From Haloferax sp. Q22 (lineage in GTDB: Archaea; Halobacteriota; Halobacteria; Halobacteriales; Haloferacaceae): a DNA stretch of 64,000 nt. Shown one piece after another: positions 4,429-13,371 of this stretch. The number at the start of each line of letters is the position of its first letter. The first letter of the stretch is position 1. The notes under the pieces are model-generated. The model saw nothing but the letters and a program-made list of their open reading frames with translations, made no database searches and had not been told where the DNA came from. The stretch is from NCBI RefSeq assembly GCF_001482285.1, contig NZ_LOEP01000005.1, positions 1 through 64,000 on the forward strand. The letters run 5' to 3'. The position numbers were made by a program, and so were the translations under genes.

Positions 4429-4785
4429 TTACTTGCTCGACCGATCGTCTTCGACTTCGATGCGCTGGGGCTCTTCCGTTCGCGCGTCGGCGTCGTCACC
4501 GCCGCCCAGGAGCGACGATTGCAGGTTCTTCGCGAACGACTCGACCTGGTTTCGGAGCGTCTTGACCTCCGTCTCGAACTCCTCGACAGAGCGCTCGACG
4601 TAGTGGACTCGCTGAATCGGAATCCGGCGGACGACGTCGTTGCCGCCGGCGTCCTCGTCGAGTTTCACGATCCAGTGGTCCTGAAAGTAGGCGATGTTCT
4701 CGTTTTCGACGCGTTTCTCGACGGTTCCCTCGTCGGGGTCGTCGTAGACGATTACCGCCGTGCCGAGGTCTGTGTCCGTCATCAC
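4429..4785 (-). CDS. small acidic protein with coiled coil, unknown function
   Basis: A 118-residue protein (117 from the second ATG). The first ~60 residues look like a small beta-rich domain (GTAVIVYDDPDEGTVEKRVE, then YFQDHWIVKLDED and DVVRRIPIQRVHYVER). The next ~35 residues form a likely coiled coil (VEEFETEVKTLRNQVESFAK), and the tail is acidic and disordered. It is soluble, with no signal peptide. It lies 120 bp upstream of arcS on the same strand, so cotranscription is possible but unproved. It appears to be a haloarchaeal-only type; no function is known to me. Confidence 0.7.
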   Translation of the reverse strand: MMTDTDLGTAVIVYDDPDEGTVEKRVENENIAYFQDHWIVKLDEDAGGNDVVRRIPIQRVHYVERSVEEFETEVKTLRNQVESFAKNLQSSLLGGGDDADARTEEPQRIEVEDDRSSK

Positions 4786-4914
4786 GGGTGCTTGTGTCCA
4801 GACACTTCTATGTCTGGTGGCACAGCGAACTCGCCGGTGACCGAACCCACCAGTTCGGCCGCTCTACTTCCACCGAGCCTACCGAATTTAGCCCGCCCCG
4901 CCCGAACAGCCACT

Positions 4915-5376
4915 ATGAACGCCTCCGACCCCACCGGCCCGTGGTCACGCGACCGCGTCGACGACTTCCTCGCCGACGCGACCGTCCCGGTCCGACTCTC
5001 GTGTCGCACCCCGGCGGACGACCTCTGGATGCTCTCGCTGTGGTACGAGTGGGACTCCGAGGCGACCGAACTCCGGTGTGCCACTTCGGCCGACGCCGAT
5101 GTGGTGCGATTCCTCCGCGCCCACGACGACGTGGCGTTCGAAATCTCGACCAACGACCCGCCGTACCGGGGCGTCCGCGGCCGGGGCACCGCGACCGTCG
5201 AACCCGACGCGGAGAAGGCGGTTCTGCGGCGACTCATCACGCGGTATCTCGGCGACACCGACTCGGAACTGGCCGAGCGCTTACTCTCGCCCGACCGCGA
5301 CGAGGTCGTGATTCGGATTCGGCCCGAGCGGCTGCATACGTGGGACTACGCAGCGCGGATGAAACAGTCGAAATAG
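4915..5376 (+). CDS. pyridoxamine 5'-phosphate oxidase-family protein (FMN-binding split barrel)
   Basis: A 153-residue protein resembling the small PNPOx-like split-barrel flavoproteins that bind FMN or F420. Visible features: strand VPVRLSCRTPADDLWMLSLW, ATSADADVVRFLRAHDDVAF, the GVRGRGTATVEPD turn typical of these barrels, and a C-terminal segment VVIRIRPERLHTWDYA. The ATG at 4915 is preferred because upstream in-frame residues overlap the divergent neighbouring gene on the other strand. The substrate cannot be read from sequence; members often act as general stress or redox oxidoreductases. It sits alone on the plus strand. Confidence 0.75.
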   Translation: MNASDPTGPWSRDRVDDFLADATVPVRLSCRTPADDLWMLSLWYEWDSEATELRCATSADADVVRFLRAHDDVAFEISTNDPPYRGVRGRGTATVEPDAEKAVLRRLITRYLGDTDSELAERLLSPDRDEVVIRIRPERLHTWDYAARMKQSK

Positions 5377-5439
5377 TCGGATCTGTTGAGGCAGTCGGTT
5401 ACTGGTGGATTGGTGGAGGTGTGCTGAACTCAGGGGCGC

Positions 5440-5655
5440 TTACCGACCCGACGGTCGCTCACCTGTGAGCGAGAGGTAAGCCTCACCAAGTAGGACGAAG
5501 GCGAGGATACCTGCGGGGGCACTCCACGTCCCGCCGACATCTAACGTAAACAGTAGAACTGCGACGAGTAATCCAGCGACGAAGAACAACAGTCGTGATT
5601 TGAGCGAGCCGGGGTTGGAGGACCGGTCAGGCATTGTACTGGGTGTGGTATTCAA
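5440..5655 (-). CDS. small two-helix membrane protein
   Basis: A 71-residue protein (64 from an internal ATG at 5632-5634, MPDRSSNPG). Two hydrophobic segments, about residues 21-40 (LLFFVAGLLVAVLLFTLDV) and 46-62 (APAGILAFVLLGEAYLSL), joined by a short GGTW turn, predict a helical hairpin with a basic C-terminal tail. It is convergent with the PNPOx-like gene. Nothing indicates a specific role. Confidence 0.6.
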   Translation of the reverse strand: MNTTPSTMPDRSSNPGSLKSRLLFFVAGLLVAVLLFTLDVGGTWSAPAGILAFVLLGEAYLSLTGERPSGR

Positions 5656-5962: not shown

Positions 5963-7966
5963 TTACCGACGTCGGACGGCGACGAGCGCCGCCGCGACGA
6001 GTGCGACGAGGGCCACGACGAGGCCGAAGCCGGGCGCGTCGGTGGACGACTCGCTCGTCGTCTCCATCGACTCGTCGGTCATCTCGGTCGTGGGTTCGTC
6101 GGTCATCGTCTCGGTCGACTCGTCCGTCATCATGCCCTCGACCGTGTAGTCGGCGGTCGTGACGACCGCGCCGCCGGCGGCGACGTAGGGTCCGTCGTGT
6201 TCGCCCTCACTGGTCACGAAGTCGTAGGCCTCGTTGCCGTTCGTGTCCATGTGCGCCATCGGGACGATAGTGCCGGACTCCTCAAGCGGCGTGTCGAGGC
6301 TGATTTCGACGTTCTCGTGAGTGCCGGGTTCGAGGTACGCGGAGGTGCCGCGGACGCTCTCGAAGACCTGACCCTCGGTGACCGTCGCGTCGTGGACCGT
6401 CACGAAGCCGCCGTTGTGGAGCGTGACGGAGTCGACGGTGACGGTCGTGCCGTCGCCGGACTGGGCCATCGCGGTCACGACCGCGTTGACCGAGGTGTGG
6501 GCGCTGGCGACGACCGCGCCGCCATCAGCCGTGAAGGGACCGTCGGCCTCGCCCTCGCTGGTCACGAAGTCGTAGGCCTCGTTGCCGTTCGTGTCCATGT
6601 GCGCCATGGGGGTGAGCACCTGCGAGGAGCGAATCGGCTCGTCGAGGGTGACTGCCACGTCTTCGTGGACGCCGGCGGGCAGGTACATCGAGGTGCCGAC
6701 CACGCTATCGAACACCGCGCCGCCCGACAGCGACGGGTCGTGAATCGTCACGAAGCCGCCCTCGGAGAGTTCGACGCGGTCGACCACGACGGTCGCGCCG
6801 TCCGAGGACTTCATCGTGTAGTCGACGCTGGCGGAGACGGTCGCGTTGCCGCTGTCGACGACGGCGCTGCCGTCAGCCGTGTACGGACCGTCGGCCTCGC
6901 CTTCGGACTCGGGGAAGGTGTACATCTCGTCGCCGTCAGAGTCGACGTGCGCCATCGGGACGACGGTGGTCGTCTCGTTCAGCGGCGAGTCGAGTGTGAC
7001 CCGCACGTCGTGGTGCAGGCCGGGTTCGAGGTACATCGAGGTGCCGCGGATGCTCTCGAACACCGCGCCGTCGGTGACGGTGCCGTCGTGAATCGTCACG
7101 AAGCCGCCCTCGGGCAGGTACGCCGAGTCGACGACGACGGAGTAGCCGCCGGTGGCCTTCGCGGTGTAGTTCACGCTCGCCGTGTCGGAGGGCATGGCCA
7201 TCGCGGTGTCGACGACGGCGCTGCCGTCAGCCGTGTACGGGCCGTCCGTCTCGCCTTCCGACTCGGGGAAGGTGTACATCTCGTCACCGTCGGTGTCCAT
7301 GTGCGCCATCGGGACGAGCGTCGTGTTCTCGGTCACGGGCGCGTCCAGTTCGACGCGGACGTTCTCGTGGACGCCGGCGGGCAGGTACGCGGAGGTGCCG
7401 CGGATGCTCTCGAACACCGCACCCTCGGTGACGGACGCGTCGTGAATCGTCACGAAGCCGCCCTGCGAGAGTTCGACGCGGTCGACCACGACCGAGTCGC
7501 CGGTCGTGGGCTGGTCGGACATGGAGACGGTCGCGCTCGCGTTGACCATCGCGGTGTCGACGACGGCGCTGCCGTCAGCCGTGTACGGGCCGTCCGCCTC
7601 GCCGTTAGCCGCGACGAACGAGTAGACGCGGTCGCCGTCGGAGTCCATGTGGGGCATGGCGACGAACGTGCCGGACTCACCGACGGGTTCGTCGAGGTGG
7701 ACGGTCACGTTCTCGTGGGTACCGGCGTCAAGGTACGCCGACGAACCGACGACGCTCCCGAGGACGTTACCGTCCGTGACGGAGGCGTCGTGAATCGTCA
7801 CGAAGCCGCCGTCGGGGAGCGTGACGGAATCAACCGTCACGGTCGTGCCGCCTGTCGCTTGGTTCTCGAAGGAGACGGACGCAGTCTCCTGTTGTGCCGC
7901 TGCGGCCGCCGGGATGCCCCCGACGACCACGACGAGTGTCATCAACACTGCGAGTGTGCGTCGCAT
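5963..7966 (-). CDS. cell-surface protein with five tandem DUF7282-like domains and PGF-CTERM anchor
   Basis: A 667-residue secreted surface protein. An N-terminal signal peptide (residues ~1-25, ending AAAAAQQE) is followed by five tandem ~115-residue repeats. Each contains a V-V-V-D-x-V-x-L-x-x-GGFV(T)IHD block, then GSVVGSSAYL/ESIRGTSAYL, a HENV-VxLD block and an M/AHMDTDGDxxYxF block; these are the marks of the DUF7282 family. A Thr/Glu-rich linker (~600-640) leads to a PGF-CTERM-type tail: APGFGLVVALVALV and a terminal RRR, the signal cut and lipid-anchored by archaeosortase. A TATA element at 7985-7993 indicates a short leader. Likely attached to the S-layer; ligand unknown. Near-identical nucleotide blocks in repeats show recent duplication or homogenisation. 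Confidence 0.9.
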   Translation of the reverse strand: MRRTLAVLMTLVVVVGGIPAAAAAQQETASVSFENQATGGTTVTVDSVTLPDGGFVTIHDASVTDGNVLGSVVGSSAYLDAGTHENVTVHLDEPVGESGTFVAMPHMDSDGDRVYSFVAANGEADGPYTADGSAVVDTAMVNASATVSMSDQPTTGDSVVVDRVELSQGGFVTIHDASVTEGAVFESIRGTSAYLPAGVHENVRVELDAPVTENTTLVPMAHMDTDGDEMYTFPESEGETDGPYTADGSAVVDTAMAMPSDTASVNYTAKATGGYSVVVDSAYLPEGGFVTIHDGTVTDGAVFESIRGTSMYLEPGLHHDVRVTLDSPLNETTTVVPMAHVDSDGDEMYTFPESEGEADGPYTADGSAVVDSGNATVSASVDYTMKSSDGATVVVDRVELSEGGFVTIHDPSLSGGAVFDSVVGTSMYLPAGVHEDVAVTLDEPIRSSQVLTPMAHMDTNGNEAYDFVTSEGEADGPFTADGGAVVASAHTSVNAVVTAMAQSGDGTTVTVDSVTLHNGGFVTVHDATVTEGQVFESVRGTSAYLEPGTHENVEISLDTPLEESGTIVPMAHMDTNGNEAYDFVTSEGEHDGPYVAAGGAVVTTADYTVEGMMTDESTETMTDEPTTEMTDESMETTSESSTDAPGFGLVVALVALVAAALVAVRRR

Positions 7967-9108: not shown

Positions 9109-9414
9109 TCAGTCGAACGTAATCCACGCGAGGAACACGAGTCCGAACGTCTCGAAGACGTGTAACAGCATCATCAGTCGCCACGCGATGACGGGCACGT
9201 CGGTGCTGAACCACCCCGAGAGCGTCGGGTCGAGGATGTACATGTAGAACGCCAGCGCGTTCTCGGCGAGGAGGAACACCCCGAACACGAGGAGTCCGAC
9301 GGCGTGTTTAGACCTGAAGGTCAGGTAGTTTCGGGCCCACACCGCCGACAGTGCGAGCAGCACGACGACGTTGACGCCCGAGGAGACCGTCGCGACGTCC
9401 ACCCAGATACTCAT
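9109..9414 (-). CDS. small three-helix membrane protein
   Basis: A 101-residue integral membrane protein with hydrophobic segments at about 10-26 (SGVNVVVLLALSAVW), 38-58 (AVGLLVFGVFLLAENALAFY) and 76-98 (WRLMMLLHVFETFGLVFLA). It lies 79 bp downstream of a winged-helix regulator gene on the same strand. This regulator-plus-small-membrane-protein pairing is frequent in haloarchaea and suggests a joint role in sensing or envelope stress, but no biochemical function is known. Confidence 0.7.
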   Translation of the reverse strand: MSIWVDVATVSSGVNVVVLLALSAVWARNYLTFRSKHAVGLLVFGVFLLAENALAFYMYILDPTLSGWFSTDVPVIAWRLMMLLHVFETFGLVFLAWITFD

Positions 9415-9493: not shown

Positions 9494-9769
9494 TCAGTCC
9501 ATCCGCTCGACGATTGTCTCGACGGTCTCCCAGTTGGCGCGACACCGCGGCGACGGGAGGTAGACCGCGCCGTAGTCGTCGCCGCTCCGCTGGACCACGT
9601 CGTTGTCCATGAGCACGTCGAGGTGGTGCCGGACGGTTTTGTAGTCGAGGTCGAGCGTCTCGGCCAGTTGGTTGGCGTTTCGCGGCTGTTCCTCTACGGT
9701 CTTGAGAATACGCACACGGTTTTCGCCGCCGCGGGTTCCCGTGAGCACGTACCAGAGGACAGCCTCCAT
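9494..9769 (-). CDS. ArsR-type winged-helix regulator
   Basis: A 91-residue DNA-binding protein. The start MEAVLWYVLTGTRGG is the usual N-terminus of this haloarchaeal regulator type, so the 9767-9769 ATG is chosen over one 12 codons upstream. A winged helix follows: NRVRILKTVEEQPRNANQLA, recognition helix LDYKTVRHHLDVLMDN and a beta wing (GDDYGAVYLPSP). It ends in a short amphipathic helix (WETVETIVERMD). No metal-binding cysteines of classical ArsR are present. It probably controls itself and the downstream membrane-protein gene. Confidence 0.8.
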   Translation of the reverse strand: MEAVLWYVLTGTRGGENRVRILKTVEEQPRNANQLAETLDLDYKTVRHHLDVLMDNDVVQRSGDDYGAVYLPSPRCRANWETVETIVERMD

Positions 9770-9841
9770 CGTGTTCGTTGATACGTCGGGTGAACCTAAG
9801 AGCATCGACCGACAGACGCCGACGCGACCGAGTGAACTGGT

Positions 9842-11572: not shown

Positions 11573-11854
11573 ATGTTAGCCGACTTATCGCCACTCGAAG
11601 TAACCGCGCTCGCCGTCGCCCTCGTCGGGCTGGTACCGGTTATCACGCAGTACAGAGACGAGACCAAGCTGTTCGCCGCGGGGTACATCCTGCTCGTGAT
11701 CGGAATCGTGGCCACGAACGTCGAGGCGCTGTTCCTCGGGTCGGTGCTCAACTTCGTCGAGCACGCGGTCGGCATCGGCCTCGCGGGAGTCACGTTCTTC
11801 GCGGCCGCGTACGTCCGCCGGAAAAACGTCATCAAAGGCGGTGACGCCTCGTGA
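11573..11854 (+). CDS. small three-helix membrane protein coupled to a taxis transducer
   Basis: A 93-residue membrane protein. Hydrophobic segments at about 8-25 ([16 protein letters not shown]), 34-54 ([19 protein letters not shown]) and 62-82 ([19 protein letters not shown]), with a basic C-terminal end (VRRKN). Its TGA overlaps the GTG of the transducer gene by 4 nt, so the two are translationally coupled and made together. The transducer has no extracellular ligand domain, so this protein may be its membrane partner or sensor subunit (inference). An AT-rich promoter region lies at 11480-11520. Confidence 0.75.
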
Positions 11855-13371
11855 TAATCGACGCGCTGTTCGACGCTATCGGAACCCTCGGGTTCATGGG
11901 CGCGGCGGTGCTGGCGTGGCTCAACTACCGCGATACCGACGCGGAAGCGTCGTTCTGGCTGACGTACGCGTTCGCCTCCGTGCTGGCGATTCTGTGGATG
12001 GTCAGCCTCACGCTCGAGAAACTCGGCATCTACACCGAGATATTCAACCTCGTGACCTCGCCGCTGATGACCGCCACGGTCGCCGTCTTCGCAATCGGCG
12101 GCACCGCGACGCTCGCCATCGTCGCGGACATGAAGGAACTCGTCAACGACGCCGAAGAGCGGCGGCGCGAACTCGACGCGCTCACGACGGACCTCGAACG
12201 ACAGGCCGAGAACTACGGCGACGCGATGCAGACGGCCGCCGACGGCGACCTCACCGTCCGTGTCGACGCCGAGAGCCAGAACGACGCGATGCGCCGCATC
12301 GGGCGGGGCTTCAACGAGATGTTGGAGGCCATCGACTCGGTCATCGTCCAGATACAGACGTTCGCCGATCAGGTCGACGACGAGAGTTCCGAAGTCACCG
12401 CGAGCGCGGACGCCGTGAAGACGACGAGCACGGACGTGGCCAACAGCATCGAGGAGATTTCGGCGGGCAACGAGACGCAACACCGGAACCTCAACGCCGC
12501 GGAGTCCGAACTGAGCAACCTCTCTGCGACCATCGAGGAGATTGCCTCCTCCTCCGAGGAGATCGCGCGGCAGTCCCAACAGACCGTCGGGCGCGCCAAG
12601 GAGAGTCAGGAAGCCGCCGGTTCGACCATCGAGAAGATGGAGCAGTTGGAGTCGCGGTCGACCGAGACCGTCACCGAAGTCGAAGAACTCCAGCAGTCGG
12701 TCACGCAGATCAGCGAGGTCGTCGACCTCATCGACGACATCGCCGAAAAGACGAGCATCCTCGCGCTCAACGCCTCAATCGAGGCGGCGGGCGCGGGCGA
12801 CGCCGGTGAGGGGTTCGCCGTCGTCGCCAGCGAGGTGAAGACGCTCGCCGAAGAGACCGCCGAGGCGACCCAAGAGGTCGACTCGCTCATCCGCGACATC
12901 GAACAATCGACCGAGAGCGTCGCCGAAGACACCTTCGAGACGCAGGCCGAGGTCGAAGCCAGCCGCGAGACCGTCGGCGAAACGGTCGAGGTGCTCGAAG
13001 AAATCGTCCACAAAATCGAAGACAGCAACGACTCCATCCAGTCCATCAGCAGCGCCACCGACGAGCAGGCGCAGTCGACCCAAGAGGTCGTCACGATGAT
13101 GGACGAGATAACGAACCTCAGCGACCGGACGGCCTCGGAGGCGCAGAACGTCTCCGCCGCGGCCGAAGAACAGACGGCCGCGACCCAGCAGATTGCAGCG
13201 TCGTCCTCGTCGCTCTCGGAGCGCGCACAGCAGCTCAAGTCGCTCGTCTCGCAGTTCGACTCTGGGCGCGCGGCGGGCGGCGTGCCGGGCCGCGAGACGG
13301 CGACGCCCGCGGCCTCGACTCCCAACCGAGCGATGCGGGCGGACGGACGCGGCGACGACCGCCCGAACTGA
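11851..13371 (+). CDS. methyl-accepting taxis transducer (Htr) with three membrane helices
   Basis: A 506-residue chemotaxis/phototaxis-type transducer. It begins with GTG. Three hydrophobic helices occupy about residues 5-95 ([49 protein letters not shown]), then a HAMP-like linker ([18 protein letters not shown]), long heptad coils, and the highly conserved hairpin tip ([13 protein letters not shown]) that binds CheA/CheW. Glu/Gln-rich methylation-site candidates flank the tip ([14 protein letters not shown]). There is no periplasmic domain, so sensing must be by the membrane part or by a partner. The upstream small membrane protein overlaps it by 4 nt. No che genes are nearby. Confidence 0.9.

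Follow-up and report, generated by a model that had tools for sequence, protein, structure and literature searches.

A taxis transducer without a ligand domain raises the question of how it perceives its signal and whether it does so on its own. One such gene lies in the 64,000-nucleotide stretch of Haloferax sp. Q22 DNA analyzed here (the window), where it directly follows a gene for a small membrane protein. An earlier interpretation made from the letters alone (the sequence-only reading) had coupled the two proteins, compared their layout with that of the sensory rhodopsin/transducer pairs, and suggested a new type of membrane sensor, possibly for energy state, oxygen or membrane properties. 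Both open reading frames are present as described, the GTG start codon of the transducer gene overlapping the TGA stop codon of the small gene (Table 1). Presumably, this overlap couples the translation of the two genes; start/stop overlaps of 4 or 8 nucleotides are also present in relatives of the pair.

Hydropathy analysis places membrane stretches at residues 8-24, 39-55 and 65-81 of the small protein (hereafter half A) and at residues 5-21, 37-53 and 75-91 of the transducer (its membrane module being half B), with none further downstream. Likewise, AlphaFold2 models, calculated for the single chains of A and of B, comprise three helices in the small protein (pLDDT 88) and three in the transducer (pLDDT 80), where helix 3 continues without interruption towards the HAMP region. 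The MCPsignal domain (PF00015) was matched with an E-value of 1.7e-40, identifying the protein as a transducer, and HAMP (PF00672) reached 21.8 bits, short of its cut-off of 25 bits. The Pfam search gave no sensor domain for the transducer, and an extracellular domain is absent. Thus, the proposed architecture of three helices preceding HAMP and signalling parts without a ligand domain is borne out by hydropathy, AlphaFold2 and Pfam, HAMP being a weak match. The genome encodes a single copy of the small protein, 11 transducer-type matches and three CheW-domain matches in frames of 188, 145 and 869 amino acids; the last has the size of CheA, which yields two CheW proteins and one CheA-type protein.

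Table 1. Coordinates of the gene pair and its parts in the window, and of two stand-alone pairs at loci L164 and L166 in other genomes.
Feature	Coordinates	Strand	Basis or remark
Half A: small membrane protein, 93 aa, three helices	11573..11854 (stop included)	+	ATG start ORF
Taxis transducer, 506 aa	11851..13371 (stop included)	+	GTG start ORF
GTGA start/stop overlap	11851..11854	+	GTG 11851-11853 overlapping TGA 11852-11854
Half B: membrane module of the transducer with three helices, approximately residues 1-94	11851..12132	+	hydropathy, AlphaFold2, alignment
HAMP-like region, transducer residues 124-161	12220..12333	+	under Pfam cut-off
MCP signalling domain, transducer residues 258-423	12622..13119	+	Pfam
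Half A signature, residues 48-64	11714..11764	+	T48, N49, E51, E63, H64 invariant in 48/48 pairs
L164 stand-alone pair	A 4832-5170, B 5167-5460		
L166 stand-alone pair	A 4620-4931, B 4928-5218		

A search with the single sequence of the small protein found it in 31 of 194 genomes of the class, and at 28 of the 29 extracted places (L013-L041) a transducer with a membrane part like that of the window lies directly behind the small gene. The remaining place, L041, holds a 327-amino-acid frame without a transducer; it is not a relative and was dropped. Profiles of the small protein (A1) and of transducer residues 1-100 (A2), both leaving out L041 and the near-identical L015 and L022, were then run on 391 genomes of the class. 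The two profiles match the identical 46 genomes, which represent 21 of 86 genera, and each profile has 49 matching places in them. At each of these places the genes are adjacent, on the same strand and with the small gene first, and the pairing is therefore not due to chance. None of the 49 strong half B matches lacks the small gene, and at E ≤ 0.001 neither half was found alone in the 391 genomes, the exception being a weak and partial match to half B (G184:C8; E 7.9e-4), which covers positions 10-52 of the 100 in the profile. Hence, the proposed connection of the two proteins is well supported.

The pairing is not specific for Haloferax, where 11 of 15 genomes contain the pair and the other four contain neither half. 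In a draft contig of Halorubrum ezzemoulense (G284; L159 and L112) the small gene is intact and the transducer gene is interrupted by a stop codon. A plasmid search gave no match. According to rough gene calling, the flanking genes are shared within genera but change from one genus to the next, with the pair itself retained; no neighbour is conserved between genera that would give a clue to the signal.

Helix counts, invariant residues and trees were analyzed for 48 of the 49 pairs, without L159 and its broken transducer; the named duplicates L100-L104 and L110 were dropped, and the transducer alignments A6 and A7 do not include L112, the frame of which is interrupted. At the hydropathy threshold used, 42 of the 48 small proteins show three stretches and six show two, and all 48 transducers show three within the first 100 residues, four of them with a further weak one. 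Nine positions are invariant in all 48 small proteins (G19, Y38, T48, N49, E51, E63, H64, G67 and G72), as compared with five in the membrane part of the transducers (D8, W36, W49, E56 and G59). T48 to E51 end helix 2 of half A and E63/H64 lie near the start of its helix 3, and in half B helix 1 has D8 close to its start and helix 2 ends with E56. Of the invariant residues, T48, N49, E51, E63 and H64 of A and D8 and E56 of B are polar or charged. Since positive charges are located in loop 1 and at the C-terminus of the small protein and on the HAMP side of the transducer, both proteins should have their N-terminus outside and their C-terminus inside. With this inferred topology the charged invariant residues are predicted to be positioned at the outer side of the membrane or close to it, and for this reason we place the putative sensing site there.

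The two halves also diverged in concert. FastTree distances for the 48 pairs correlate with r = 0.86 between A and B, as compared with 0.55 between A and the signalling domain and 0.48 between B and the signalling domain; the partial A-B correlation given the signalling domain is 0.82. In 1000 label permutations the largest r was 0.20 for A and B and 0.29 for A and the signalling domain. The difference between 0.86 and 0.55 therefore indicates that the small protein belongs to the membrane half of the transducer. Recombination inside the transducer gene could be an alternative source of the higher A-B correlation.

Two further features of the signalling domain were observed. Among the transducers L117-L158 the distances of the membrane half and of the signalling domain are rather discordant (r 0.48), which suggests an exchange of signalling domains. 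At the tip of the signalling domain, where AARAG is the usual hairpin motif, the arginine is replaced by glycine in 12 of the 48 transducers and by threonine in two; AARA is kept in 27, one has AARV, and six were not matched by the pattern.

Outside the class, the profile A1 revealed distant relatives in three more genomes of the phylum, namely G437 (twice), G448 and G414, all of them in one class, in which three of the 11 genomes covered match; a fourth match, in G625 (E 0.0015), covers 35 positions of a 409-amino-acid frame. At the former loci a three-helix ORF of about 96 amino acids without an MCP domain comes directly after the small gene; it matches the transducer membrane profile with E-values of 1.3e-12 (L166), 1.4e-8 (L164) and, weakly, 0.0024 (L165). 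At L167 the second ORF, located behind 4781-5068 (minus strand), contains an in-frame TAG where L165 codes for W; this may reflect a pseudogene, a sequencing error or read-through, and the L167 half B was left out of alignment A9 due to this codon.

When the stand-alone A proteins were included in the profile (A8), it matched a small protein in G399, a genome of yet another class (L177/L205), in which the small gene overlaps by 8 nucleotides with the gene for a 325-amino-acid histidine kinase (HATPase_c, 4.8e-18). This form occurs in one of the three genomes covered from that class. In shuffling comparisons the kinase-linked A scored z 12.8 against L164A and z 6.7 against the A of the window (0 of 500 shuffles in either case), and the N-terminal three helices of the kinase scored z 7.7 against the stand-alone L166B (0 of 500 shuffles). 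A direct comparison of the kinase half B with the B of the window was not significant (z -0.6), nor was this half B matched by the B profile; it was recognised pairwise, by its similarity to one stand-alone B. The motif T..E-x(6-11)-..EH is present in all 49 haloarchaeal A proteins, in the kinase-linked A and in two of the four stand-alone A proteins, EH being absent from those of L165 and L167.

Taken together, beyond the class the halves are encoded as a stand-alone gene pair in three genomes and, in a single case, with B fused to a histidine kinase; both arrangements are new here. A and B are encoded together at all 49 places of the class, at all four stand-alone loci and at the kinase locus. 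A wider profile (A10) run on 256 genomes of the phylum gave no further convincing case. The weak matches L178-L184 and L198/L199 were set aside, as they are longer or unlike ORFs in which the motif is absent by eye, and the weak match L197 (G566; E 4e-5) has three stop codons within the match.

Regarding the surroundings of the stand-alone pairs, a Roadblock/LC7 protein (8.1e-14) is encoded near that of L165 (4961-5314, minus strand), and by eye an ORF similar to Roadblock/LC7 lies near that of L167. Also by eye, L165 and L167 adjoin ScpA/SMC-like and aspartyl-tRNA-synthetase-like ORFs.

Because the pairing is obligate, the halves co-diverge and they are reused with different outputs, we propose, with a probability of roughly 0.6, that the small protein and the transducer's own helices form one two-chain membrane sensor of which B bears the output. 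A more far-reaching version, to which we give even odds, is that they represent a previously undescribed archaeal two-chain intramembrane module, in which A is free, B stands alone or is fused to a transducer or a kinase, and a T..E/N..EH site at the outer face reads a membrane-borne or energy-linked signal. Judged from the sequences, the best reading is that the outputs are interchangeable and may be a taxis transducer, a histidine kinase or none. The idea of a new membrane sensor type put forward by the sequence-only reading is thereby strengthened, as the module also occurs with a histidine kinase and by itself.

Within such a sensor, A and B would bind each other in the membrane, and, as transducers are dimeric, the complex would probably contain two copies of each. 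Close to the outer face, the invariant residues would cluster into a site at which the stimulus is read; as to its nature, our guess is that protonation, an ion, a small polar ligand or the redox state of a quinone-type compound could be met there. The stimulus would then shift helix 3 of B, which runs towards HAMP, and thereby change CheA activity. Neither the neighbouring genes nor the domains or the fold point to a particular signal. A helix leading into HAMP is the usual route of the signal in transducers. If this holds true, the pair would be a non-rhodopsin case of a separate membrane-embedded receptor that drives an archaeal transducer, and the related pairs would show recombination of the module with different output domains.

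Alternatively, the transducer might sense alone, and the small protein might merely aid its folding, its insertion or its way to the receptor array. The three helices of the transducer with their own invariant residues are compatible with this explanation, and transducers with no known partner are possible, as exemplified by MpcT (OE1536R; HVO_0420), for which Table 2 of PMC3579733 gives two helices and membrane potential as the signal and enters no partner protein. However, the small protein contains more invariant residues than the membrane part of the transducer, and the A motif is kept in combination with other outputs, for which a chaperone of one transducer family would have no need. We thus consider sensing by the transducer alone rather unlikely.

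The family and fold searches bear on a second alternative, namely that A and B were originally a small transporter, channel or electron-transfer unit, the working state of which is read by the fused output in haloarchaea and in one kinase. The stand-alone pairs without an output domain indicate that A and B may be active by themselves. In addition, the best matches of half A in the VIA fold comparison are three-helix subunits of the NuoK/ND4L type, with Z up to 8.9; yet, according to the tool's own warning, such values represent the background of helical bundles. Foldseek returned nothing for half A at E below 1 (best E 2.4), and PF00420, which we take to be the NuoK family, is absent from the listed Pfam matches of 27 small proteins at E ≤ 0.1. 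An origin of this kind therefore appears quite improbable.

For the small protein, the Pfam and NCBIfam searches yielded no family above the cut-off. PF07695 (7TMR-DISM_7TM) was weakly matched by 24 of 27 small proteins (best 9e-5); the one of the window scored 13.3 bits against a cut-off of 29, in the last part of the family (positions 129-200 of 205), and does not qualify as a member. Moreover, the 7TMR-DISM and HisKA_7TM families (PF07695, PF16927) have seven helices as opposed to three. Searches of solved structures by sequence gave no match for half A; for half B they gave weak fragments, the best being PvdL (E 0.0018 over 35 positions), which we dismissed as chance. With regard to a possible common origin of the two halves, the profiles of A and B show no similarity to each other. 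The stand-alone proteins bridge the two weakly, with L166B matching the A profile at 4e-4 and L166A scoring z 5.2 against L166B; the A of the window scored z 4.1 against L164B and z -0.4 against the B of the window.

Receptor-plus-transducer pairs are already known. In Halobacterium, the genes for the membrane receptors sensory rhodopsin I and II lie beside those for the transducers HtrI and HtrII, and the signal passes via the membrane helices to HAMP. The resemblance noted by the sequence-only reading proved to be one of layout, a separate membrane protein being encoded beside the transducer. Unlike the sensory rhodopsins, the partner described here is encoded upstream and overlaps the transducer gene, and the same kind of partner accompanies a histidine kinase elsewhere. 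A photoreceptor pair of the sensory rhodopsin type, for which the layout alone would speak, is rejected, as had been anticipated, since the small protein comprises 93 residues with three helices instead of seven, none of the 48 aligned small proteins shares an invariant lysine that could serve as the retinal lysine, and neither a Pfam rhodopsin family nor a solved structure was matched by sequence. By description, the pair also resembles LiaF-LiaS, where an intramembrane-sensing histidine kinase nearly without an extracellular loop is combined with an accessory membrane protein; however, LiaF-LiaS is bacterial and of other families. Published passages describe the binding proteins BasB and CosB as co-purified with their transducers. 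MpcT, the gene of which is distinct from Htr7 in the pertinent parts of PMC3579733 and PMC10869688, resembles the transducer of the window in its few membrane helices and is a candidate analogue for an energy-state signal.

Halobacterium offers a link to named transducers. In H. salinarum DSM 3754 two pairs (L110/L130 and L131) are separated by about 13.5 kb and face in opposite directions on the two strands, the first being followed by a convergent 774-amino-acid transducer that fits CosT. From the name and the synteny with tgtA, we assume that the transducer of the window is the orthologue of HVO_1999. Table 2 of PMC3579733 contains only two transducers with three helices, Htr7 (OE3473F) and Htr17 (OE3436R), both without a known signal, and Htr7 is numbered next to CosT (OE3474R). 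Based on layout, the order of gene numbers and strands, we infer that the two pairs of H. salinarum are Htr7 and Htr17 and that the transducer of the window is of this kind. In the relevant passages, Htr7 corresponds to HVO_1999 in Haloferax volcanii and is higher in rods (PMC10869688), and in one mutant the HVO_1999 transcript drops along with the motility cluster (PMC10716476). The small partner gene does not appear in the passages on Htr7 and Htr17 in PMC3579733 and PMC10869688, and among open-licence PMC papers we found none on the small partner or on its sharing with kinase and output-less pairs. A fixed partner would thus provide a direct handle on Htr7 and Htr17, transducers that are listed without a known signal.

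Two other features of the window were noted. At 9109-9414 and 9494-9805 (both minus strand) a hydrophobic protein of about 100 amino acids without a Pfam match is encoded beside an ArsR-type HTH protein (HTH_5, 6.8e-10). By profile, the hydrophobic protein is unrelated to half A or B; other Haloferax loci, too, encode it next to tgtA. Furthermore, positions 5963-7966 (minus strand) encode a secreted-looking protein of 667 amino acids with about five similar repeats of approximately 115 amino acids and a C-terminal hydrophobic anchor.
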